NCBI GenBank assembly: GCA_025786725.1
Contig: JAHLTZ010000031.1
Coordinates: 186,001-250,000 of the forward strand
DNA length: 64,000 nt
Source: Syncephalis fuscata
Lineage: Eukaryota; Zoopagomycota; Zoopagomycetes; Zoopagales; Piptocephalidaceae
Direction: 5' to 3'
In this document: one piece after another, positions 18,113 to 42,720 of the stretch
Numbering within the stretch: the stretch's first letter is position 1
Layout of the letters: each line of letters begins with the position of its first letter
The notes under the pieces: generated by a model
Seen by the model: the letters and a program-made list of their open reading frames with translations, nothing else
What the model was told of the DNA's origin: nothing
The model's database searches: none
Translations under genes and position numbers: made by a program

Positions 18113-18660
18113 TATTACACCATTTTATTACTGTTGTTACAACAATGTCATTATTTTTTATCGAATCAAAGGCAGATCAAGCTTTGTAATAAGAAATACT
18201 AGCATTTGTTGAGCCATTGCAATTGTTAATATATATTAAATAATCAAATATGTACTTAATGCTTTTACTTGTATGTTTTTTTATTTACATTTAAGAATGT
18301 AGTAATATCATTCGTAGTATATTTAGTAATAAATCTAATAGTATTATTACCAGAATCATATGGATAACCATTAAAATGCTTAATATTGCAATGAACAATT
18401 TTTACTAGCCTAGTCTTTTGCTTTCTGGTCATCAAAACAAACAGACATTTGTTATTGGAATTGTTTTTATGAAGACAGATAAACTGTAATCTTATTGAAT
18501 TACTATTTTTCCTTTAAAATTGCGATTGTTAACAAGCCTAAACTTATCAGCAGCAATATTCAATTCTTCAATACTGGTAAACATGGCTTTTTAAAATAGT
18601 TTGGTAGATATTTAAATATATCTTCTTAATAAAAGGAATTAATGACTTACTAATTTTATT
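18112..18660 (-). repeat. Repeat family C, left-arm copy
   Basis: Matches 42195-42720 (inverted) and a third copy at 34625-35114 that flanks the inner end of the right arm. On the minus strand a decayed reading begins MFTSIEELNIAADKFRLVNN and is stopped soon after. Likely a fossil coding segment of unknown origin. Confidence 0.6.
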
Positions 18661-18717
18661 TATGCTTATTTAAACCGTAATTTATTACGATAAATAACTT
18701 CAAAATTTCCCATTTCA

Positions 18718-19480
18718 TTTTGACTCCTACTTTTGAGTTTCCATAGCAAAATTTGTTTCAATTGAAATTGCACTGCTATACAAAATACAATTATATCACC
18801 TCTATCAAAATATTGTTAATAAATCGATTTAAATAAACAATATAACATACCATTTGACTATTTTGAAACATGTGATGTTGTTCATTGCTGTTGTTAACCA
18901 TATGTAGAAGAATTGATAAAATACTAATAAAAGCCATATGATTGCAATTCCATATTGTTTCGTAATTATTATTGTTGTTACTACGTACAGCATGGATTAT
19001 TGCGCCTGAATGGTCTCTTCTATTTTTCAATCTTCTACTGTTGTATTTGGGCATATTTGCCATGTAAGATACCCGTCTATGGTGACAAAAAGATAGGACA
19101 ACTAGCGTTCTGATGTTCACCATTCTCTTGAGCATTGTTGGTATCAACTTAATAGGTGCAGTTTATTTGCCAACCATTGATGAAGCAAATAACCTCCACC
19201 ATATGCAATAATGATAAGTTGAGTGTCTTCACCAGGAAGATCTTGTGGTGACAGTTGTAACCAGAAGATACAGCATGCCGTTGAGGTTACTTGAACAGGT
19301 GTTGATGTAAATAAGAGAAACAAAGACTAGGGATTGAATAATGTTTTTATTGATGTCCAAATACGCATGCTATTTATATTTTTATATTCAACATTATCAT
19401 GTAATATATTACTGAATAGAATAATAAAATGGTAATAAGAAATATGGTGAAATGAGTAAATAAAATGTAGGAGTCAAGGT
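18718..19480 (-). mobile_element. TnpB/Fanzor-derived transposon remnant, copy 2
   Basis: Starts TTTGACTCCTACTTTTGAG and ends AATGTAGGAGTCAAGGT, degenerate inverted ends shared with copy 1. The minus-strand ORF (19147-18791) preserves SYMANMPKYNSRRLKNRRD and WNCNHMAFISI, the first zinc-ribbon half and the RuvC-III-like block of TnpB/Fanzor proteins with several key residues lost. Mirrored by the copy at 41364-42127. Confidence 0.6.
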
Positions 19481-19799
19481 AAAATGATTTGCTCATGTAA
19501 ATATTACGCGCTCAATTTGATGTTTTATTTTGTTTTAATATATAGCTATAAACTTTTATTAATGATCAATAAGCAAAAACAATATGTCTTTTTATTGTTG
19601 CAATAATGTATAATACTAGCTGCTTATTCTAATAAATAATTAGATTAAGTCTTGTAATAGTTGGCTTAATTGATGATCGTGTAAATGTGAGTATATAAGA
19701 AGTTACAATGTGATTGTAAATATTTATCGTACAAACAGCCAGTGTTATAAGCTATAGTGACAATAATAAGTTATTTAATTACTAAACTCGTTAATTCAA

Positions 19800-21180
19800 T
19801 TTTATTTACAACTCTTTGTTTTTATGCGTTATCTCGGTTTGACGTTGCTGCAGTTCTGGCCGCATCAGCAACAGCCAACTTTTGATAAATGCTGTCCAAC
19901 TTAGCATGCCCATAATGATTTGCTATAGGTCAAATTAGTAAGCCTTTGAGCTGCCAATTGTTTTACATTGGTTTTCGCTTTAATTTGTTCTTCTATGTTC
20001 CATCTTGCTTGACTTGTCAGGATTGGTTTCAAAAATGTAAGCAGCAGTTAGGCCTTGGATGATTACCAGTTGATATGCAACCTATTGAAATTATGCACTC
20101 GAAATTATTGATATTTGGCTAAAACTTTCTATTGTGTCCAATCTAGTGTCTGCATATTGCATTGTGTGTAATTTAGCCGATACAGCCTACTTTACAGACA
20201 AAAACGGACAACATCATTAGTTGGATGGAATGTTCTATTGTTAAAGATGTCGTGCTGAATTATGCCACAGACTGAGCAGCGTTTAAACCTTGAATAATTA
20301 GGGATTGGTGTGTAATCCATTACCACTATTCACTCAAAGTTGCTAATATTTGAATAGAATTGTTTGGTGTGCCTAGCCTCTCGTTTGTATATCGCATTGC
20401 ATAGAATCTAGACAATGCAATTTAGTTTACAGCTGAAACTGGTAAAAAATGACTTGTTGGAATGTTCCATTGCTCAAAATGCTGTGATGCATCATGCATA
20501 AACAGTACTTATTGTATAGTCGACTTCAAGTAACTTGGATTGGCCGCCATTTGAATGATGGTAGCTGCGCAACATGTAGCATGATATGCCTGGATGTGAT
20601 ACATTTGTGAATTCAAAGCAATGATTACTCCATAGCAATGGGCATAGTGTCGAATGAAATGCACGCATGTACCAATCAACACACTTTATAATTTAAAAAT
20701 TATGGCTGGCCTATGTATAGCAGTAAAAACCTGTATAAAAATACTAGTTTGATACATAAGCTTGTTTTTGCAACAATATTGTACATTGTTTGTATGTATG
20801 CAAATATTGGTGCCCGAGTCATTCAATGGAAGTGACAGCAAAGATATCATTATTGCTTTTACAAAATCAAACATTATATTTGTTTTTACCGAATAGTTAG
20901 ACCGTGTAACAAAAACCAGGTTAATATGTCTATTTTTATCCCATATGTACTGGATTGTGAACACCGTTACAGTACTCGTGCAAATAACTAACAGATTGGA
21001 GTAAAGACCAGGCAGGTTAAAATAAAGACCAATAGGTTAAAATCAATACTGAGTGAATTAAAATCAAGCCTAGAAAGCATCCTAGCACACATGAATCTAT
21101 TGTTACATGTGCACCTCAAACCACTATTTGGATTGCTTTATTGGTTCATATTACACATCAATGGTATATCTCGTATACTA
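19800..21180 (+). repeat. Arm region upstream of the microexon gene, with internal imperfect repeats
   Basis: No intact gene. Between about 19960 and 20520 there are imperfect repetitions of a roughly 200-bp block: GGAATGTTC(T/C)ATTG recurs near 20227 and 20439, and TACAGAC/TACAGCT...AAAA before each. The same is seen in reverse in the right arm (about 40300-40900). It may be remains of a gene family or the extended promoter region; I cannot decide. Confidence 0.35.
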
Positions 21181-21211
21181 CAGTATACTAGCATCTTAGC
21201 ATAATCATAAG

Positions 21212-21219
21212 TATAAATA
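21212..21219 (+). promoter_or_regulatory. TATA box of the left microexon-array gene
   Basis: TATAAATA about 190 bp before the start codon. It is conserved in the right arm (39672-39665) and, degraded, before the short paralog. The 5' leader behind it is C/T/A-rich. Confidence 0.55.
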
Positions 21220-21256
21220 GCCCACAAAATATACACAACCAACTGCGATATCATCA

Positions 21257-21370
21257 TCACACTCTACTTCTTATTAAACACACACTACTCTCCACTTTAT
21301 ACCGACCACACTCTACTTCTTGCTATACACGCACTACTCTCCATTCTATACCAACCACACTCTACTATTT
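21257..21370 (+). repeat. Tandem duplication in the 5' leader of the left microexon gene
   Basis: A block of about 50 bp starting CACACTCTACTTCTT and ending TATACC(G/A)AC occurs twice, followed by a truncated third start (CACACTCTACTATTTC) just before the ATG. Also present in the right arm. Confidence 0.7.
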
Positions 21371-21405
21371 CTTTTATTTGTTTGTCTTAACAAGTCAATA
21401 TCACC

Positions 21406-24400
21406 ATGAAGCTTTCCATTGCCGTCGTTTGCACCGTTGTTGTGGCTATTGTGGCTAGTACATCCATGGTTGATGCTAAACCGGCCTTAGTTCGCCGTGA
21501 TGGTATGTTACAATAACAATAAATATACCATAATATTTTGTTTACTAACAGTATTTCTAACTAATAATTATAATAGCCAGTAAGCTGTATTGTATACTAA
21601 ATGACTATACATTAACTATACTATTTATTGATTGTACCAATTATTTAATATTAATAGGGTGTAAGTTGTATGATATATTACTTGACTATACATTAACTAT
21701 ATGTCATATATTGTATCTATCAACAAATTAATATTAGATGACTGTAAGTTATATTGTATATTGGTTGATTACTCACTAATTGCATGCTATGCGCTATGTG
21801 TATCAACAACTTAATACCAATAGGCTGTAAGTGATATTGTATATTGATGACTTATAAATTAATCATATACCATGTATTATGTGTATCAACAATTTAATGC
21901 CATAGTGGGTAAGTTGTATTGTATATTAGCTGAGTATTAACTAATTATATATTATGTGTTGCATGTATCAATGACTTGATATTAGTGCAATGTAAGTTAT
22001 ATTATATATTAATTGCACACTAGCTAATTATATATTATGCGTTGTGTGTATCAATAACTTTATACTAATAGGCGGTAAGTCGTATTGTATGTTGCTTACT
22101 TATAAATTAATTATATATCATACACTATGTGCATTAATAACTTGATGGAATAGTTGGTAAGTAACATTGTATATTCACTGACTATGCACTAATTATATAT
22201 TTTGTACTGTGTGTGGGCAATTTAATACAATAGCGAGTGAGTTGTATCGTATATAAACCAATCACTCACTAATTACATATCATGCACTGTGTGTATCAAC
22301 GACTTAATATTAATAGAATGTAAGTGGTATTGTATATTAATTGGGCATTGGCTAATTATATGCTATTTAATGTGTAAATCAATAACTTAATATTAATAGG
22401 CAGTAAGTATTATTATGTACTAACTAATTGCTCGCTGATTATATTCATGTACTGTGTACATTAACAACTTAATATTAATAGATCGTAAGTGCTATTGTAT
22501 ATCATGTACTGTGTACATTAACAATTTAATATTAATAGAGCGTAAGTGATATTGTATATCCATGTACTGTGTGTATCAACGACTTAATATTAATAGAATG
22601 TAAGTGGTATTGTATATTAGTTGGCTGCATTAACTATGCTATTTACTAATTGTACTTATTTAATATTAATAGTCAGTAAGTGATATTGTATATTCTTTGA
22701 CTGTACATTAACTATGCTATTTACTAATGGTATTAATTATTTAATATTAATAGATCGTAAGTGATATTGTATATTCTTTGACTGTACATTAACTATGCTA
22801 TTCACTAATTGTACTTATTTAATATTGATAGCTGGTAAGTGATATTGTATATTCTTTGACTGTACATTAACTATGCTATTTACTAATGGTATTAATTATT
22901 TAATATTAATAGACCGTAAGTAATATTATGTATTAACTGGCTATACATTAACTATTTGTTTACTAATGGTATTAATTGTTTAATATTGATAGGGGGTAAG
23001 TAGTATTGTATATTCCTTAACTGTACATTAATTATTTAATATTAATAGCTGGTAAGTGATATTGTATATTCTTTGACTGTACGTTAAATATGCTATTTAC
23101 TAATGGTATTAATTATTTAATATTAATAGACCGTAAGTGATATTGTATATTCTTTGACTGTACATTAATTATGCTATTTGTTAATTGTACTTATTTAATA
23201 TTGATAGCTGGTAAGTGATATTGTATATTCCTTAACTGTACATTAATTATTTAATATTAATAGCTGGTAAGTGATATTGTATATTCTTTGACTGTACATT
23301 AAATATGCTATTTGTTAATTGTACTTATTTAATATTGATAGCTGGTAAGTGATATTGTATATTCTTTAACTGTACATTAACTATGCTATTTACTAATGTA
23401 TTATTATTTAATATTAATAGACCGTAAGTAATATTATGTATTAACTGGCTATACAATAACTATACTATTTATTGATTGTACAATTATTTAATATTAATAG
23501 AAAGTAAGTGGCATTGTATATTAACTGGCTATATATTAATTATGCTATTTACTGACTATACTAATTATTTAATATTAATAGGGTGTAAGTTATATTGTAT
23601 ATTGATTGCACACTGGCTAATTATATGTCATGCGCTGTGTATATCAATAACTTAATATTAATAGGGTGTAAGTTGTATTGTATATTAACCGATTATACAT
23701 TAACTATGCTATTTACTCATTTTACCTGTCATTTAACATTAATAGACCGTAAGTGGTATTGCATATTAACTGAATATATATATTAATTATGCTATTTACT
23801 GATTATACTAATTATTTAATATTAATAGCCTGTAAGTAGTATTGTATATCAATTGGCTATACATTAATTGCTATTTACTGATGGTACCAATTGTTTAATA
23901 TTAATAGGTGGTAAGTTGTATTGTATATTAACTATACATTAACTATAATATTTACTGATAATACCAATTATTTAATACAATAGTCCGTAAGTAGTATTTT
24001 ATATTAACTGACTATACATTAACTATGCTATTTACTGATTGTACTTATTATTTAATGTTAATAGGCCGTAAGTGATATTGTATATAGCTAACTATCTACT
24101 AATTATATATTATGTATTTTATGCATCAACAACTTAATATAATAGATTGTAAGTAGTATTGTATATTAATTGATTATATATTAATTACATTCTATTTACT
24201 ATATGTATCGACAAATTAATATTAATAGGTCGTAAGTTGTGTTGCGTATTAACCGACTATGCATTAATTATACACTATGTATTGTGTTCACCAACAAATT
24301 AATATTAATAGATTGTAAGTTGTTGTATACTAACTGGCTACTCACTAATCACATGCTATTTAATTTATTCATCAACAAATTAATATTAATAGATAGTAAG

Positions 24401-24724
24401 TTATTGTATACTAACTGGCTACTCACTAATCACATGCTATTTACTGTATCCATTAACAACTTAATATTAATAGAAGGTAAGTTGTATTGCATATCAATAG
24501 AACATGCGCTAATTTATACTATATACTGTATTCAACAACATCTTAATATCAATAGAATGTAAGTAGTATTGTGTATTAATTGATTACTTACTAATTACAT
24601 GTTATGCACCATGTGTACCAATAAATTAATACTAATAGGCCGTAAGTAGCATTTTATATTGATAACTTATACATTAACTATATGACATGTAATATATTTA
24701 TTTATAAATACAGCTAATCCATAA
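21406..24724 (+). CDS. Secreted six-cysteine peptide gene built from 40 microexons (3 or 6 nt each)
   Basis: Exon 1 (21406-21502) encodes MKLSIAVVCTVVVAIVASTS + MVDAKPALVRRD plus one base: signal peptide (cleavage likely after VDA) and a dibasic RR site. Then 40 microexons follow, each directly between ...AATAG and GTAAGT. Starts: 21577, 21658, 21738 (6 nt), 21824, 21906, 21986 (6 nt), 22072, 22154, 22234, 22317, 22400, 22482, 22539, 22597, 22673, 22754, 22832, 22913, 22993, 23049, 23130, 23208, 23264, 23342, 23421, 23501, 23582, 23665, 23746, 23829, 23908, 23984, 24065, 24146, 24229, 24312, 24393, 24474, 24556, 24639; the rest are 3 nt. The last exon starts at 24714, with TAA at 24722. Introns are 53-80 nt, mostly 75-80. 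Joined in phase 1 the frame is open: 77 aa, mature part about 45 aa with C-X3-C-X3-C-X19-C-X3-C-X4-C. It opens ARYDCLVQCVAKC and ends CHYKECPNP. Function unknown; splicing is inferred from sequence only. Confidence 0.8.
21503..24713 (+). repeat. Tandem array of intron-plus-microexon units (left arm)
   Basis: About 41 imperfect units of roughly 80 bp. Each begins GTAAGT(T/G)(G/A)TATTGTATATT, has a CATTAACTATGCTATTTACT-like core and ends TTAATATTAATAG. The only systematically variable positions are the three bases between AATAG and GTAAGT. Short 53-55-nt introns at 22485, 22542, 22996 and 23211, and reiterated CTG and ACC triplets between 22830 and 23425, point to recent unit duplication there. 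Confidence 0.9.
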
Positions 24725-24980
24725 GCATAAGGACATCAGCATTGGTAGTGCAATCAACCACTATTCCAATACAATTTAGGTATATATTCGGTGAAAAGCA
24801 AGACCATTTGACAACTACGCCGTCCAGTCTATCTATATATCAAGTTTTGGCCAATGCTCCGGTTTATCCAGTCTTTAATCAATGGAATCATTATGTTACC
24901 AACATGTTTGCATCTAGTTGTTTCTATTCAACTGTGCAAGCTTATAGTAATAAACTTATGGTTCCATCTTAACTATATAC
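24725..24980 (+). other. Downstream open reading stretch conserved in both arms (3' UTR or unknown exon)
   Basis: After the stop of the microexon gene, a frame without ATG runs to a TAA at about 24970. It contains RYIFGEKQDHLTTTPSSLS and VYPVFNQWNHYVTNMFASSC. The right arm (about 37040-36813) keeps the same frame open with only a few amino-acid changes. It could be an alternative last exon, a remnant of another gene, or chance conservation in a young duplicate. Confidence 0.35.
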
Positions 24981-25080
24981 GATCAAATTGCTAAATCTAT
25001 AATCATGTTCTATTTGCATTCAATAATTAACTATTAATTAAATAGTTAAAATAACAAAAGACATGTGCGATTATGTTGTA

Positions 25081-25500
25081 TTAGCTATAAACATAGATTG
25101 GTATGGATAGTAGCAAAGCTATCAGCATCATATAGCCAAACAATATTATGCTGAAATTAAAATAAAAACGCTTTCTAATAAAACATGGCAATAAAGCATA
25201 CAATATTATAAACAAAATAAATAGACAAGTCAAATGTGTGAATAGTGATAGCAAAACTATACTGTATGCAATTAGCCAAGAGCAATAAACGAAATGGATC
25301 AAGATCTGCTAAAAGAATACAGTTAGCAATAAGCTTTTGGCTTTTATTAATATAGTTTCTACAATCTACAATATTAATGATATAGACAACATATAGTATA
25401 TGTATACAAGATAGATATGTGCAGTACAATAATAATGATAAATAAATAGCTTAATAACCAACGACACTCACCACCATTTCATCTTCAATAACACGAATAT
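25081..25500 (-). pseudogene. Possible small multi-spanning membrane protein gene, unassigned
   Basis: Minus strand: a reading LNNHNSHTFKLNIRVIEDEM ends at a GTGAGT donor near 25470. Candidate downstream exons include ILIHFVYCSWLIAYSIVLLS followed by strongly hydrophobic stretches to a stop at 25081. The frames of the pieces cannot be joined without a one-base change. The right-arm counterpart (about 36290-36690) is more broken (indels in the last exon). Family not recognised. Confidence 0.3.
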
Positions 25501-27076
25501 TTAGTTTAAATGTGTGGCTATTATGGTTATTTAACTGCCAAATCACATTAAACAACCAATAGCGTGCTCAATATTGTGGAAAAAGTATCTTTATTTAGTT
25601 AATAAAAATATTATAAAATTTGATACAAATCAAGTGGTTTAAATGGCCCATCACAGCATCCTCTTAAGCTTTTTTCGCCATGTTCCACAACTCTTTTAAA
25701 TTAGAACATTGGAGCGACTACTGCGCCATTTAAAATGAACGTTACAAGTAGATTGTTCCAGTTTATCAATGACAAATGTCATGTTGACGGTTTTATTTTG
25801 CACATCTTCACTCTTGCTTGATACGCCAACTAATTAATTTAAGTTGATCAAAGCAATAACACTTTTATGTAATTCGGAAATATTTAATTGCTATATCTGA
25901 TATCTGGATGCTGTAAACCAATCTAATCTTATTTGTTGGTTAAATTCAAAATCTAAAAATATTTATTAATTCAATTATTTTTGTTTGCATTACACTTTAT
26001 TTATTTTAATAGTTGTTCCATTAGTAGTTTGTATTTATTCAATAAAAACGTTTGTTTCAGCATCAACTACTGTTTCAGCATTGTTACTGTTCTGATATTC
26101 CGGGCAGGGTCTTGTAAGGTGTGATCAAGAGATATACCATGTAATTGTATAGCCAGTTAAAGTCGCATGTGATTGATCGCAAGAATAATATACCTATCGG
26201 ATATTAGTACCGATTACTAGTAACAAATGCCTATTACGACAATATGACGTGTAGCTACTTGTTAGTTGTGAGCATATGAGCAGTCGCCTGAACTAATATG
26301 CTGCGCTAATGATCAAATACTACAAGGCATTCCAGTTTATTATTAGCTATGTTTACTATTAATGATAGCTTTATTCAATATCAATAAAAAAATAATCAAG
26401 CTTCTAGTCCAATGTTATTTCTACTTAGTGTTATACAAGCTATTCAGTTTATTATAGTTAAACTGTAGTAATTAATGACCAATAAGGAATAATTTATTAT
26501 AAAAGCAATACAACCAAACAACAAATTATATTCTGAGCGTTAAGGTAAGCGTTGATAAGCATTGGGAATTAACGTTATAGGATAGCGACAGGACAAGGTG
26601 TTGTTTGGTCATCTAAGTTGTGATTTCTAAAGCTAGAAGCGTAACACTGTTATTGCAACAATGTCATTAGTTTTAAATGAGTTTGGTACAGCTATATAAA
26701 TGTTAAGACGTTGATCATGGAAAATTAAACCGGATCAAATGCTATGTTGTGTGTTGTGTAGTAGATGTCATTACGTGACAAAAAGTTAATAACTAATGCA
26801 AATCACCATATTTGGTAATTGACATAAATAAATGCGTTATTGCTCTTAATAATTGAATATCTTAGTTTCTATTGTAATAGCTCAATGTTTATTTGAGCAT
26901 ATTATTAGCATTAATGTAATCGAATAAACCAAAATGAACTGTATTGCCATCCCGAATGTATTACTTTAGTGATTCAGGTGAATCAATGGAATACTACCCA
27001 CGATTAAAAACTGATGCAGTGATGCTACAACATCACCCACTTTTTTCTTTTTTAAAACATTGTAATTAAAGCTACA
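25500..27076. other. Inner end of left arm and spacer edge, no gene seen
   Basis: AT-rich, no convincing ORF. Contains a fragment of repeat B (25995-26090). The arm ends near 26670; the remainder is the upstream region of the TTLL12-like gene. Confidence 0.4.
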
Positions 27077-34624: not shown

Positions 34625-35114
34625 GTAAGTCATTAATTTCTTTTATTAAGAAGATATATCTAAATATCTACCAAACTATTTTAAAAAGCCATGTTTACCA
34701 GTATTGAAGAATGAATATTGCTGCTGATAGTTTAGGCTTGTTAACAATCGCAATTTTAAAGGAAAAATAGTAATTCAATAAGATTACAGTTTATCTGTCT
34801 TCATAAAACAATTCCAATAACAAATGTCTGTTTGTTTTGATGACCAGAAAGCAAAAGACTAGGCTAGTAAAAATTGTTCAATGCAATATTAAGCATTTTA
34901 ATGGTTATCCATATGATTTTGGTAATAATACTATTAGATTTATTACTAAATATACTACAAATGATATTACTACATTCTTAAATGTAAACCAAAAACATAC
35001 AAGTAAAAACATTAAGTACATATTTGGTTATTTAATATATATTAACAATTGCAATGGCTCAACAAATGCTAGTATTTCTTATTACAAAGCTTGATCTGCC
35101 TTTGATTCGATAAA
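34625..35114 (+). repeat. Repeat family C, third copy at the palindrome spacer edge
   Basis: Direct copy of 42195-42720 (inverted to 18112-18660). It sits exactly where the right arm begins, so the right arm is flanked on both sides by family C in the same orientation. It contains an 85-aa ORF (34837-35094) beginning MMTRKQKTRLVKIVQCNIKH, broken in the other copies. Its position suggests involvement in forming the inverted duplication. Confidence 0.6.
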
Positions 35115-37054
35115 AAATAATGACATTGTTGCAACAACAGTGTTGCGCTTCTAGTTTTAGAAATCGCAACTTAAATGACCAAACAACACCTTGTCCTGTC
35201 GCTATCCTATAACGTTAATTCCCAATGCTTATCAACGCTTACCTTAACGCTCAGAATATAATTTGTTGTTTGGTTGTATTGCTTTTATAATAAATTATTC
35301 CTTATTGGTCATTAATTACTACAGTTTAACTATAATAAACTGAATAGCTTGTATAACACTAAGTAGAAATAACATTGGACTAGAAGCTTGATTATTTTTT
35401 TATTGATATTGAATAAAGCTATCATTACATAGTAAACATAACTAATAATAGAACTGGAATGCCTTGTAGTATTTGATCATTAGCGCAGCATATTAGTTCA
35501 GGCGACTGCTCATATGCTCACAACTAACAAGTAGCTACACGTCATATTGTCGTAATAGGCATTTGTTACTAGTAATCGGTACTAATATCCGATAGGTATA
35601 TTATTCTTGTGACCAATCACATGCGACTTTAACTGACTATACAATTACATGGTATATCTCTTGATCACACCTTTACAAGACCCTGCCCGGAATATCAGAA
35701 CAGTAACAATGCTGAAACAGTAGTTGATGCTGAAACAAACGTTTTTATTGAATAAATACAAACTACTAATGGAACAACTATTAAAATAAATAAAGTGTAA
35801 TGCAAACAAAAATAATTGAATTAATAAATATTTTTAGATTTTGAATTTAACCAACAAATAAGATTAGATTGGTTTACAGCATCCAGATATCAGATATAGC
35901 AATTAAATATTCCGAATTACATAAAAGTGTTATTGCTTTGATCAACTTAAATTAATTAGTTGGTATCAAGCAAGAGTGAAGATGTGCAAAATAAAACCGT
36001 CAACATGACATTTGTCATTGATAAACTGGAACAATCTACTTGTAACGTTCATTTTAAATGCGCCGTAGTCGCTCCAATGTTCTAATTTAAAAGAGTTGTG
36101 GAACATGGCGAAAAAAGCTTAAGAGGATGCTGTGATGGGCCATTTAAACCACTTGATTTGTATCAAATCTTATGATATTTTTATTAACTAAATAAAGATA
36201 CTTTTTCCACAATATTGAGCACGCTATTGGTTGTTTAATGTGATTTGCAGTTAAATAACCATAATAGCCACACATTTAAACTAAATATTCGTGTTATTGA
36301 AGATGAAATTGGTGGTGAGTGTCGTTGGTTATTAAGCTATTTATTTATCATTATTATTGTACTGCACACATCTATCTTGTATACACATACTATATGTCGT
36401 CTATATCATTAATATTGTAAATTATAGAAACTATATTAATAAAAGCCAAAAGCTTATTGCTAGCTGTATTCTTTTAGCAGATCTTGATCCATTTCGTTTA
36501 TTGCTCTTGGTCATTGCATACAGTATAGTTTTGCTATCACCATTCACGTATCTAATTGCTTATTTATTTATTTATAATATCTATGCTTTATTACCATGTT
36601 TATTAGAAAGCGTTTTTATTTTAATTTTAGCATAATATTGTTTGGCTATATGACTGATAGCTTTGCTACTATCCATACCAATCTATGTTTATAGCTAATA
36701 CAACATAATCGCACATGTCTTTTGTATTTTAACTATTTGATTAATAGTTTCATTATTGAATAAAATAGAACATGATTATAGATTTAGCAATTTGATTGTA
36801 TATAGTTAAGATGGAACCATAAGTTTATTACTATAAGCTTGCACAGTTGAATAGAAACAACTAGATGCAAACATGTTGGTAACATAATGATTCCATTGAT
36901 TAAAGACTGGATAAACCGGAGCATTGGCCAAGACTTGATATATAAATAGACTGGACGGCGTAGTTGTCAAATGGTCTTGCTTTTCATCGAATATATACCT
37001 AAATTGTATTGGAATAGTGGCTTGATTGCACTACCAATGCTGATGTCCTTATGC

Positions 37055-39479
37055 TTATGGATTAGCTGTATTTATAAATAAATATATTACATGTCATATA
37101 GTTAATGTATAGATTAGCAATATAAAATATAACTTACCTTCTATTAGTATTAAGTTATTGATACACAAAATAAATAACATGTAATTAGTAAGTAACCAAT
37201 TAATATGAAATGCTACTTACGGCCTATTAGTATTAAGTTGTTAGTACACATGATGTATAACATGTAATTAGTAAGTAATCAATTAATACACAATACTACT
37301 TACATTCTATTGATATTAAGATGTTGTTGAATACAGTATATAGTATAAATTAGCGCATGTTCTATTGATATGCAATACAACTTACCTTCTATTAATATTA
37401 AGTTGTTAATGGATACAGTAAATAGCATGTGGTTAGGGAGTATCCAGCTAGTATAAAATATAACCTACTGTCTATTAATATTAAATTATTGATGAGCACA
37501 ATACATGGTATATAATTAATATGTATTCAGTTAGTACATAACACAACTTACTGCCTATTAATATTAATTTGTCGATACATATAGTAAATAGAATGTAATT
37601 AATATATAATCAATTAATACACGATACTACTTACAATCTATTATATTAAGTTGTTGATGCATAAAATACATAATATATAATTAGTAGATAGTTAGCTAAT
37701 ATACAATATCACTTACTGTCTATTATATCAAGTTAATTCATACAATGAATAGCATAGTTAATGTATAGTCAGTTAATATACAAAACCACTTACATTCTAT
37801 TAATATTAAATAGTTGGCACATCATTGAATAACAGCTAATATATAGTCAGTTATTTACAATATTACTTACCACCTATTAATATTACATAATTAGTATAAG
37901 CAGTAAATAACAGTTGTATAATCAGTTAATATACAAAACCACTTACAAACTATTAATATTAAATAGCATAGTTAATATATAGTCAGTTAATATACAATAT
38001 TACTTACTGACTATTAATATTAAATAAGTACAATTAGTAAATAGCATATTTAATGTATAGCCAGTTAATATACAATACCACTTACACCCTATTAATATTA
38101 AATAGTTGGTATAGTTATTAAATAGCATAGTTAATATATAGCCAGTTAATATACAATACCACTTACTAACTATTAATGTTAAATAGTTGATATAGTTATT
38201 AAATAGCATAGTTAATATATAGTTAATTAATATGCAATACAACTTACAGGCTATTAATATTAAATAGTTGGTACAATCGTTAAATAGCATAGTCAATATA
38301 TAGTAATTAATATACAATACCACTTACGACCTATTAATATTAAATAGTTGGCACAATCAGTAAATAGCATAGTTAATGTGTAGTCAGTTAATATACAATA
38401 TAACTTACGACCTATTAATATTAAATAATCGACACAGTCAGTAAATAGCGGTTAATATATAGTCGATGGATATACAATATCACTTACCGCCTATTAATAT
38501 TAAGTTATTGGTACACACAATACACGATATATAATTAGCCAATGCCTAATTAATATACAATACCACTTACAATTTTCTAATATTAAGTTGTTGATATACA
38601 CAGTGCATGATATGTAATTAGTGAGTGATTGGTTCATATACGATACAACTTACTTCTTTCTGTATTAAATTGCCCACACAGTACAAAATATATAATTAGT
38701 GCATAGTCAGTGAATATACAATATTACTTACTAACTATTCCATCAAGTTATTGATGCACATAGTGTATGGTATATAATTAATTTATAAGTAAGCAACATA
38801 CAATACGACTTACCGCCTATTAGTATAAAGTTATTGATACACACAGCGCATAATATATAATTAGTCAGTGTGCAATTAGTATACAGTATAACTTACATTG
38901 TTCTAATATTAAGCCATTGGTACATACAACACATAATATATAATTAGTTATAGTCATTTAATATACAATACAACTTACCCACTATGGCATCAAATTGTTG
39001 ATGCACATAATACATGATATATGATTAATTTATAAGTTAGCACATACAATATCACTTACAGCCTATTGGTATTAAGTTGTTGATACACATAGTCCATAGC
39101 ATGCAATTAATGAATAATCAACTAATATACAATATAACTTACAGTCATCTAATATTAAGTTGTTGATAGATACAGTATATGACATATAGTTAATGTATAG
39201 TCAAGTAATATATCATACAACTTACACCCTATTAATATTAAATAATTGGTACAATCAATAAATAGTATAGTTAATGTATAGTCATTTAGTATACAATACA
39301 GCTTACTGGCTATTATAATTATTAGTTAGAAATACTGTTAGTAAACAAAATATTATGAATATTTATTGTTATTGTAACATACCATCACGGCGAACTAAGG
39401 CCGGTTTAGCATCAACCATGGATGTACTAGCCACAATAGCCACAACAATGGTGCAAACAACGGCAATGGAAAGCTTCAT
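37055..39479 (-). CDS. Secreted six-cysteine peptide gene built from 28 microexons
   Basis: Exon 1 (39479-39383) is nearly identical to the left gene: signal peptide, VDA, KPALVRRD plus one base. Microexons (plus-strand low coordinate, in gene order): 39307, 39226, 39143 (6 nt), 39060, 38979, 38897 (6), 38814, 38732, 38654 (6), 38571 (6), 38488, 38409, 38328, 38248, 38167, 38086, 38008, 37947, 37871, 37794, 37717, 37635, 37552, 37469, 37386, 37314, 37221, 37138; others 3 nt. The last exon starts at 37065, TAA at 37057-37055. Joined in phase 1 the frame is open: 67 aa, mature part about 35 aa with C-X3-C-X5-C-X7-C-X3-C-X3-C. It opens ARYDCLEQC and ends CNKECQANP. Both ends match the left gene, the middle does not, and six cysteines remain. 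One donor is GTAGGT; the first is GTAAGC; the rest are GTAAGT. Confidence 0.8.
37066..39382 (-). repeat. Tandem array of intron-plus-microexon units (right arm)
   Basis: Twenty-nine imperfect units of about 75-85 bp with the same organisation as the left array. Units 1-8 from the signal-peptide end align one-to-one with the left array (triplets identical or differing by a base or two), as do the units nearest the last exon. The middle units cannot be aligned by their triplets. Confidence 0.9.
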
Positions 39480-39664
39480 GGTAATATTGACTTGTTAAGA
39501 CAAACAAATAAAAGAATAGTAGAGTGTGGTTGGTATAGAATGGAGAGTAGTGCGTGTATAGCAAGAAGTAGAGTGTGGTCGGTATAAAGTGGAGAGTAGT
39601 GTGTGTTTAATAAGAAGTAGAGTGTGATGATAATATCGCAGTTGGTTGTGTATATTTTGTGGGC

Positions 39665-39672
39665 TATTTATA
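39665..39672 (-). promoter_or_regulatory. TATA box of the right microexon-array gene
   Basis: TATAAATA (reverse strand) about 190 bp before the ATG, same context as in the left arm (AAGTATAAATAGCCCACAAA). Confidence 0.55.
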
Positions 39673-41363
39673 CTTATGATTATGCTGAGATGCTAGTATA
39701 CTGTAGTATACGAGATATACCATTGATGTGTAATATGAACCAATAAAGCAATCCAAATAGTGGTTTGAGATGCATATGTACAATAGATTATAATGTGGTA
39801 GGATGCTTTCTAGGCTTGATTTTAACCTGTCCGGTCTTTATTTTAACCTGCCGGTCTTTACTCCAATCTGTTAGTTATTTGCGCGAGTACTGTAACGGTG
39901 TTCACAATCCAGTACATATGGGATAAAAATAGACATATTAACCTGGTTTTTGTTACATGGTCTAACTATTGGTAAAAACAATATAATGTTTGATTTTGTA
40001 AAAGCAATAATGATATCTTTGCTGTCACTTCCATTGAATGACTCGGGCCCAATATTGCATACATACAAAATGTACAAATTGCCAAAAACAAGCTTATGTA
40101 TCAAACTAGTATTTTTATACAGGTTTTTACTGCTATACATAGGCCAGCCATAATTTTTAAATTATAAAGTGTGTTGATTGGTACATGCGTGCATTTCATT
40201 CGACACTATGCCCATTGCTATGGAGTAATCATTGCTTTGAATTCACAAATGTATTACATCCAGGCATATCATGCTACATGTTGCGCAGCTACCATCATTC
40301 AAATGGCGGCCAATCCAAGTTACTTGAAGCGACTATACAATAAGTACTGTTTATGCATGATGCATCACAGCATTTTGAGCAATGGAACATTCCAACAAGT
40401 CATTTTTTACCAGTTTCAGCTGTAAACTAAATTGCATTGTTAGATTCTATGCAATGCGATATACAAACGAGAGGCTAGGCACACCAAACAATTCTATTCA
40501 AATATTAGCAACTTTGAGTGAATAGTGGTAATGGATTACACACCAATCCCTAATTATTCAAGGTTTAAACGCTGCTCAGTCTGTGGCATAATTCAGCACG
40601 ACATCTTTAACAATAGAACATTCCATCCAACTAATGATGTTGTCCGTTTTTGTCTGTAAAGTAGGCTGTATCGGCTAAATTACACACAATGCAATATGCA
40701 GACACTAGATTGGACACAATAGAAAGTTTTAGCCAAATATCAATAATTTCGAGTGCATAATTTCAATAGGTTGCATATCAACTGGTAATCATCCAAGGCC
40801 TAACTGCTGCTTACATTTTTGAAACCAATCCTGACAAGTCAAGCAAGATGGAATATAGAAGAACAAATTAAAGCGAAACCAATGGAAAACAATGGCAGCT
40901 CAAAGGCTTACTAATTTGACCTATAGCAAATCATTATGGGCATGCTAAGTTGGACAGCATTTATCAAAAGTTGGCTGTTGCTGATGCGGCCAGAACTGCA
41001 GCAACGTCAAACCGAGATAACGCATAAAAACAAGAGTGTAAATAAATTGAATTAACGAGTTTAGTAATTAAATAACTTATTATTGTCACTATAGCTTATA
41101 ACACTGGCTGTTTGTACGATAAATATTTACAATCACATTGTAACTTCTTATATACTCACATTTACACGATCATCAATTAAGCCAACTATTACAAGACTTA
41201 ATCTAATTATTTATTAGATAAGCAGCTAACATTATACATTATTGCAACAATAAAAAGACATATTGTTTTGTTTATTGGCCATTAATAAAAGTTGTATAAC
41301 TATATTAAAATAAAATAAAACATCAAATTGAGCGCGTAATATTTACATGATCAAGCCATCTTT

Positions 41364-42127
41364 ACCTTGACTCCTACATTTTTATTTACTCATTTCACCA
41401 TATTTCTTATTACCATTTTATTATTCTATTCAGTAATATATTACATGATAATGTTGAATATAAAAATATAAATAGCATGCGTATTTGGACATCAATAAAA
41501 ACATTATTCAATCCCTAGTCTTTGTTTCTCTTATTTTACATCAACACCTGTTCAAGTAACCTCAACGGCATGCTGTATCTTCTGGCTACAACTGTCACCA
41601 CAAGGTCTTCCTGGTGAAGACACTCAACCTATCATTATTGCATATGGTGGAGGTTATTTGCTTCATCAATGGTCGGCAAATAAACTGTACCTATTAAGTT
41701 GATACCAACAATGCTCAAGAGAATGGTGAACATCAGAACGCTAGCTGTCCTATCTTTTTGTCACCATAGACGGGTATCTTACATGGCAAATATGCCCAAA
41801 TACAACAGTAGAAGATTGGAAAATAGAAGAGACCATTCAGGCGCAATAATCCATGCTGTACGTAGTAACAACAATAATAATACGAAACAATATGGAATTG
41901 CAATATATGGCTTTTATTAGTATTTTATCAACCTTTCTACATATGGTCAACAACAGCAATGAACAACATCAGATGTTTCAAAATAGCCAAATAGTATGTT
42001 ACATTGTTTATTTGAATCGATTTATTAACAATATTTTGATAAAAGGTGATATAATTGTATTTTGTATAGCAGTGCAACTTCAATTGAAACAAATTTTGCT
42101 ATGGAAATCAAAAAGTAGGAGTCAAAA
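41364..42127 (+). mobile_element. TnpB/Fanzor-derived transposon remnant, copy 3
   Basis: Right-arm mirror of copy 2, ends ACCTTGACTCCTACATTTT and AAAGTAGGAGTCAAAA. The reading from 41699 preserves SYMANMPKYNSRRLENRRDH. The second half of the zinc ribbon is degraded. Confidence 0.6.
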
Positions 42128-42194
42128 TGAAATGGGAAATTTTGATGTTATTTATCGTAATAAATTACGGTTTCAAATAAGCATAAATAAAATT

Positions 42195-42720
42195 AGTAAG
42201 TCATTAATTCCTTTTATTAAGAAGATATATCTAAATATCTACCAAACTATTTTAAAAAGCCATGTTTACCAGTATTAAAGAACTGAATATTGCCGCTGAT
42301 GAGTTTAGGCTTGTTAACGATTGCAATTTTAAAGGAAAAATAGCAATTCAATAAGATTACAGTTTATCTGTCTTCATAAAGACAATTCAAATAACAAATG
42401 TCTGTTTGTTTTGATGGCCAGAAAGCAAAAGACTAGGCTAGTAAAAATTGTTCAATGCAATATTAAGCATTTTAATGGTTATCCATATGATTTGGTAATA
42501 ATACTATTAGATTTATTACTAAATATACTACAAATGATATTACTACATTCTTAAATGTAAACCAAAAACATACAAGTAAAAACATTAAGTACATATTTGG
42601 TTATTTAATATATATTAACAATTGCAATAGCTCAACAAATGCTAGTATTTCTTATTACAAAGCTTGATCTGCCTTTGATTTGATAAAAAATAATGACATT
42701 GTTGCAACAACAGTAATAAA
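42195..42720 (+). repeat. Repeat family C, right-arm copy
   Basis: See 18112-18660. The decayed reading begins MFTSIKELNIAADEFRLVND and hits a stop after about 30 codons. Confidence 0.6.

Follow-up and report, generated by a model that had tools for sequence, protein, structure and literature searches.

The microexon genes (MEGs) of schistosomes encode secreted proteins in which a conserved signal peptide is followed by a variable body assembled from many tiny exons, most of them a multiple of three in length. The 35 genes described in PMC10526429 contain 10–20 such exons each, mostly of 15 bp (range 3–81 bp in the abstract and 6–81 bp in the main text), separated by introns of 0.1–5 kb. In aphids, the bicycle genes are a large family of putative effectors that evolve fast; their internal exons are small and numerous, and almost all of them start at codon position 2; they average ~17 exons, and one aphid gene contains more than 100 microexons (PMC9168663). 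Isolated microexons of 1 to 3 nt have been reported in Fusarium CYP621A and Drosophila homothorax (PMC12940212, PMC7392893), indicating that spliceosomes, a fungal one included, can include 1-nt and 3-nt exons. Syncephalis fuscata belongs to the Zoopagales (Zoopagomycota) and to a genus of mycoparasites; the genome of S. fuscata S228, presumably the strain of the window, is mentioned in PMC7466969, and PMC6784888 counts a further Syncephalis among its obligate mycoparasites.

The S. fuscata arrays described here resemble MEGs in a variable body encoded by many tiny exons, mostly of 3n length, behind a conserved leader that looks like a signal peptide by eye, but their exons are mostly of 3 nt, number up to 41 per gene, and are separated by introns of ~78 nt, outside the size features of MEGs. 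The sequence-only reading had described the MEG microexons as longer and fewer, in agreement with the published figures (mostly 15 bp, 10–20 per gene; PMC10526429). No sequence relationship to MEGs was found in profile searches, which require shared 5-residue words. As in the bicycle genes, the internal exons start at codon position 2, because an exon 1 of 3n+1 length is followed by internal exons of 3n length; the bicycle genes, with ~17 exons on average, encode insect proteins. CYP621A and homothorax carry one microexon in a normal gene, whereas in S. fuscata the whole mature coding region is divided in this way. The nearest analogues are the schistosome MEGs and the aphid bicycle genes, which appear to work on a like principle. 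Bicycle exons are larger than a single codon.

The window, a stretch of 64,000 nt at bases 186001–250000 of contig C225, appears to hold two members of a large S. fuscata family whose secreted peptide, in its mature part, is spelled by exons of almost one codon each; we give this reading a probability of about 0.92. Its features are as follows.

18354 to 26674, + strand: left arm of a large inverted duplication carrying the gene.
21258 to 21366, + strand: 49-bp unit repeated in tandem within the 5′ leader region, with a second occurrence beside the right gene at 39518–39626.
21406 to 21502 (97 nt), + strand: exon 1 of the left gene, read directly, with a signal-peptide-like leader (judged by eye), a short pro-region, and a dibasic RR site (MKLSIAVVCTVVVAIVASTSMVDAKPALVRRD...), ending one base into a codon.
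21577 to 24641, + strand: microexon array of the left gene, with 40 microexons (38 of 3 nt and two of 6 nt); introns of 53–80 nt, donors GTAAGT with a single GTGAGT at 22237, and a TTAAT-like motif just before the acceptor.
21738 to 21743 and 21986 to 21991, + strand: the two 6-nt exons of the left gene, from decoding.
24714 to 24724, + strand: start of the terminal exon of the left gene, with the TAA stop at 24722–24724.
After the stop, + strand: 3′ UTR motif GACATCAGCATTGGTAGTGCAATC of the left gene.
35113 to 42492, − strand: right arm of the inverted duplication.
37055 to 39479, − strand: right gene, with exon 1 at 39383–39479 and a terminal exon that starts at 37065 and extends to the stop.
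37138 to 39309, − strand: 28 microexons of the right gene (24 of 3 nt and four of 6 nt).

Joining the exons of the left gene gave a coding sequence of 234 nt and a predicted precursor of 77 residues, with a hydrophobic leader, the RR site, six cysteines that all lie in the mature part, and the C-terminal sequence KECPNP. Direct reading and scripted decoding confirmed the 40 microexons seen in the sequence-only reading after a signal-peptide exon, and decoding reproduced their donors and spacing, the open joined frame of ~234 coding nt with six cysteines and the KECPNP end, and the stop at 24722–24724. AATAG had been placed before every exon; it does not precede all of them, since some acceptors read CATAG or GATAG, and both 6-nt exons follow TTAG, the AG there lying 3 nt further upstream. 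The right gene yielded a precursor of 67 residues, a different peptide from that of the left gene, with six mature cysteines and the end QANP. It had been taken as an independent array that decodes in the same way. A six-cysteine peptide was indeed obtained, but the array is a duplicate of the same locus and not independent: the arms are 96–100% complementary in the blocks listed outside the arrays within the arm bounds. The middle of the right array has strongly diverged from the left one, yet it still decodes. The inverted duplication with the microexon gene spans ~7–8 kb, a third copy lies on the same contig (C225:304340–304620), and a MetE gene, whose best match (95%) is a protein recorded from S. 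fuscata, adjoins the window arrays.

Comparison of the two arrays indicated how they differ. Left units 1–11 paired one to one with right units 1–11 (similarity 0.88–1.00), and left units 34–36 and 38–40 matched right units 22–27 in order (0.82–1.00). Left units 15–25 resembled other left units (0.84–1.00), and units 16 and 18 had identical preceding introns with different triplets. The exons of units 9 and 10 were 3 nt long in the left array; in the right array the acceptor AG sits three bases further upstream, which makes them 6 nt long. The third copy (L039) kept the 28 exons of the right array with one synonymous change. Among three close pairs, donors differed by 0.5–0.6%, introns by 3.0–4.3%, and triplets by 1–6.7%; the codon changes were eight non-synonymous and two synonymous, which are small numbers. 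Three nearly identical pairs had zero triplet changes, so that rapid triplet evolution rests on few comparisons. A left-versus-right triplet divergence of 0.47 was discarded, as it was inflated by misaligned units.

In the 28.95-Mb assembly, the pattern AATAG-N3-GTAAGT occurred 3183 times, whereas its reversed control occurred 28 times. The N2 (59 versus 58) and N4 (54 versus 50) spacings were at the background of their reversed controls, and TAATATTAG-N6-GTAAGT was found 50 times against 0, so that the genome-wide excess is confined to N3 plus TTAG-N6. We then considered 28 decoded loci, chosen by similarity to the window exon 1 and its upstream DNA (40 of 241 candidates were scored); the exact N3 pattern fits 552 of their 760 microexons, which suggests a genome total of ~4,000 microexons in ~140 arrays, figures extrapolated from loci that had been picked for their resemblance to the window. 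A short open frame of 39–43 aa, typical of the array genes, was present in ~75 of 150 scored leader matches (of 313 candidates). The original observation is correct and much larger than first noted, since it extends to a genome-wide family. On contig C1, N3-pattern clusters lie in mirror orientation at 475–478 kb and 531–534 kb, and at 575 kb and 610 kb. The short clusters at C1:575193–575778 and C1:609974–610559 had no leader match among the matches listed, and they possibly represent a second leader family or remnants.

The reading frame was examined with three decoders that allow exons of 1–24 nt without preference for multiples of three. Exon lengths were divisible by three in 404 of 413, 536 of 544, and 758 of 773 exons, respectively. 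The last decoder penalises lengths above 3 nt, whereas the other two carry no such penalty and gave the same picture; the second applies a first-AG rule where the acceptor reads TTAGAG. Exons of 3 nt accounted for 715 of the 773, and exon 1 was 3n+1 in length in 27 of the 28 loci, the leader of L049 looking frameshifted. Peptides of individual copies were taken from a second decode restricted to exon lengths of 3, 6, and 9, which skips one odd unit each in L040, L044, L050, L051, and L063. Since this restriction prevents it from testing the frame, the frame rests on the unrestricted decodes and the spacing counts.

Selection was visible in the codon that spans two neighbouring triplets, taking its first base from the end of one and its other two from the start of the next. 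Over the 28 loci, stops made up four of 777 joined codons, compared with 48.7 ± 5.2 in 10000 shuffles of triplet order, and the codons contained 134 cysteines, compared with 70.7 ± 5.9. The spacing CxxCxxxC was present in 11 of the 28 loci, against 0.35 expected from the shuffles. A reduced set of 18 loci, which omits the near-duplicates L039, L047, L061, L032, L035, L038, and L054 and the damaged copies L049, L050, and L063, gave two stops (35.9 ± 4.4 expected) and 97 cysteines (47.2 ± 4.9 expected). The frame starting from the second triplet base contained 59 stops in the 28 loci; that starting from the first base likewise contained only four, because T is rare at the first triplet position, and a shuffle of triplet order is therefore the proper control. 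With the left array alone, 20000 shuffles gave zero stops in 10.9%, at least six cysteines in 0.11%, and both in 0.04%; the joint frequency for the right array was 0.26%. A single array is therefore suggestive, and it is the family that makes the joined reading decisive. The sequence-only reading had remarked that a random minisatellite would not be expected to behave in this way.

Twenty-four of the 28 copies could be read to the terminal exon (L058, L032, L035, and L038 were decoded, but not that far). Exactly six cysteines were found in 18 of these 24, and in 15 without any skip, as L040, L044, and L051 reach six only when one odd unit is skipped. The 18 include the near-duplicate pairs of the right window array (WR) with L039, L042 with L047, and L055 with L061. 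The other copies were L043, L054, and L062, which are short and have two cysteines, L049 and L050, which each have a 1-nt exon, and L063, which looks decayed, with no exons in one decode and six in another. The arrays of L043, L054, and L062 have 13–18 microexons and encode short two-cysteine peptides. The stop falls within the array in L040, L054, and L062, and irregular exons were seen in L044 (4 nt) and in L049 and L050 (1 nt).

In 515 exons of 3 nt from 18 arrays, the triplet positions had an entropy of 1.85–1.98 bits, near the maximum, and 55 of the 64 triplets were used. Donor positions +1 to +6 had 0–0.33 bits in the same 18 arrays, a value that is low partly because the decoder requires a donor (it accepts only sites with AG before the exon and, in the donor, G at +1 with T or C at +2). 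Taken without donor selection, the donor 6-mer was GTAAGT in 345 of 390 cases, and the commonest variants after it were GTAGGT, GTAAGC, GTGAGT, and GCAAGT. Upstream, a TTAAT-like motif, itself part of the decoder score, occupied positions −13 to −9 of the 515 exons and was followed by AG. The introns had a median length of 78 nt, were no longer than 100 nt in 533 of 546 cases, and are relatives of one another. With GT-AG boundaries and a branch-like motif before the acceptor, they look like U2-type introns.

Introns of at least 10 of the 28 loci (L039, L040, L042, L045, L047, L048, L049, L054, L057, and L032) contain short repeats of ~400 bp whose tail, in antisense, is (AAAAT)n-like; the repeats sit shortly after the donor, a position that suggests a target preference. 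We call them SINE-like from their size and tail only. They lengthen the introns to 450–900 nt; the array frame resumes beyond them in nine loci, and L032 ends first. An apparent insert in an intron of L035 was rejected as a false match to a T-rich intron. P0123, the only public gene model mapping to a decoded array, joins exon 1 of L040 to part of the second intron, which is 901 nt long and contains such a repeat, and it omits the microexons.

A profile of 15 joined precursors, in whose alignment the leader MKLSI...VDA is conserved and signal-peptide-like by eye, retrieved nine proteins, all from S. fuscata. One of them, P0121, is encoded by one contiguous ORF, and the remaining eight (P0122–P0129) are without the cysteine spacing. 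We examined 13 intronless ORFs chosen for matching P0121 beyond the leader, so that their mutual likeness is partly due to selection. Twelve were complete and one (L076) ran off the examined stretch, and all had a leader of the array-gene type, the RR pair being replaced by VHH or CC in L067, L072, and L074. Six mature cysteines were present in 11 of the 13 (L070 had eight and L076 seven), and the mature part starts with C-x2-C-x3-C, or C-x2-C-x4-C in L071. The 3′ UTR motif of the array genes was located 8–11 nt after the stop in 10 of the 13; the stretches of the other three were too short for it, and two of these show its beginning.

An HMM built from 12 mature intronless peptides, with the duplicate L074 omitted, was used to score the arrays against 200 shuffles each; shuffles of fewer than 12 residues were unscored, and any shuffle missing from the HMMER output was ranked below the true order. 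The true order scored above at least 198 of the 200 shuffles in 11 of 18 arrays. Shuffles at or above the true order numbered none in L041, L042, L044, L048, L051, and L059, one in L045 and L057, and two in the left window array (WL), L055, and L058. There was no clear preference in the other seven (7 of 200 in WR, 13 in L056, 25 in L060, 36 in L062, 43 in L040, and 51 in L046; L043 was not reported). Two near-identical intronless loci, L052 and L053, have both array-gene flanks (~80% upstream and 86% downstream identity to the window) with a short stretch in the array's place; their predicted mature peptide is very short, APWDFDGFGR, and not of the six-cysteine type. The intronless copies would be most simply explained as descendants of spliced mRNA.

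Taken together, the frame tests, the spacing counts, and the intronless paralogues lead us to conclude that the triplets are almost certainly spliced, in order. The proposal that joined 3-nt exons make a secreted six-cysteine peptide was supported by the stop avoidance and cysteine excess over the 28 loci, by the copies with exactly six cysteines, and by contiguous paralogues that share the leader type, cysteine spacing, and 3′ UTR.

Other explanations were weighed against these data. If the array were one long intron with a minisatellite, exon 1 would join the terminal exon directly and the triplets would be noncoding; in the window gene that join would keep the frame as well, because exon 1 leaves one base over (3n+1) and the internal exons add multiples of three. 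We regard this as very improbable, since the stop avoidance and cysteine excess depend on a single frame and on the triplets standing in their true order, the cysteine spacing is common to the arrays and the intronless paralogues, and near-fixed donors stand next to maximally variable triplets. The damage in a few arrays (L049, L050, and L063) and the presence of intronless genes among the publicly annotated ones (P0121 and P0130) would fit a different history, in which the arrays have become decaying relics and the working genes are the intronless paralogues alone. Relics would hardly be expected to hold so few stops among their joined codons (four of the 777, with 48.7 expected), nor donors that, in the three close pairs, lag behind the introns in divergence by a factor of about five to nine, and we consider this history very improbable as well. 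It is barely conceivable that the pieces are removed from DNA and not from RNA, by programmed elimination as in ciliates: the uniform intervening pieces are superficially like internal eliminated sequences, but their boundaries look spliceosomal, with GTAAGT, TTAAT, AG, and the donor variants listed above, and the pieces are present in the assembly.

Less easily set aside, though still unlikely, is that the triplets are optional, each transcript holding a varying subset so that one gene yields a peptide library. Since exon lengths are multiples of three in one phase, skipping would be frame-neutral, and three copies reach six cysteines only by skipping one odd unit. Against this, full inclusion gives exactly six cysteines in 15 of 24 copies without a skip and in 18 with it, and stops are avoided in the codons that bridge adjacent triplets; both observations imply that neighbours are normally joined.

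In the reading preferred here, all triplets are joined in order. The sequence shows a leader exon that ends one base into a codon, an array of 3-nt and some 6-nt exons behind it, and, in most copies, a terminal exon with the stop. Taken in succession, the triplets spell a hypervariable peptide that has six cysteines in most cases, and it is precisely this joined reading that selection acts on. For the mechanism, we propose the following model. U1 and the factors of the 3′ splice site cannot sit together on a 3-nt exon. Because such an exon is too short for defining by itself, the spliceosome would remove the introns by intron definition, probably from 5′ to 3′. The full donor consensus lies inside the intron, which would leave all three exon bases free to vary. 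Array length would change as intron-plus-codon units are duplicated in tandem or lost, each event adding or removing one residue without a frameshift. We would expect a secreted product that is cleaved after RR, is stabilised by disulfides, and serves against fungal hosts or rivals or in coping with them.

As to the product itself, four precursors gave no Pfam match above the cut-off (best, Cys_box at 19.4 bits against a cut-off of 29), and one precursor had no significant match among PDB sequences (best E 0.015, anosmin). AlphaFold2 run on P0121 alone predicted helices at residues 36–46, 52–58, and 63–68 with low confidence (mean pLDDT 66), and Foldseek with this low-confidence model found no fold match (best E 2.8). 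The 9 and 11 proteins listed by the profile searches were all from S. fuscata; these searches need shared 5-residue words, and distant kinship could escape them. The leader, the RR site, the six cysteines, the hypervariability, and the species-only matches would be consistent with secreted peptides directed at fungal hosts or competitors, with a signalling or defence role as a possible alternative.

Genes of single-codon exons, in Syncephalis or elsewhere, were not found among the papers listed from the searched open-licence literature, which covered few subscription papers. We lean towards the view that the architecture is previously unseen: the mature coding region would be an intron minisatellite with single codons between the introns, so that residues become separately duplicable cassettes. 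Unequal exchange would insert or delete residues singly without a frameshift, and a point change shifting the acceptor AG three bases upstream would add a residue. In this way the ~140 arrays (~4,000 exons, extrapolated) would diversify a six-cysteine arsenal, and reverse-transcribed mRNAs would feed intronless copies back.

If this is true, it would show that a spliceosome is able to build up a protein nearly one codon at a time, through some 30 to 40 exons of 3 nt in a row. Such arrays would test intron definition, sequential splicing, and donor recognition when exons have essentially neither length nor conserved sequence. Array genes are hard for automatic annotation, as is seen in P0123 with its missing microexons, and other genomes may hide similar arrays labelled as minisatellites. 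They also suggest a route of fast protein evolution, in which duplication of intron–codon units alters loop length without frameshifts.
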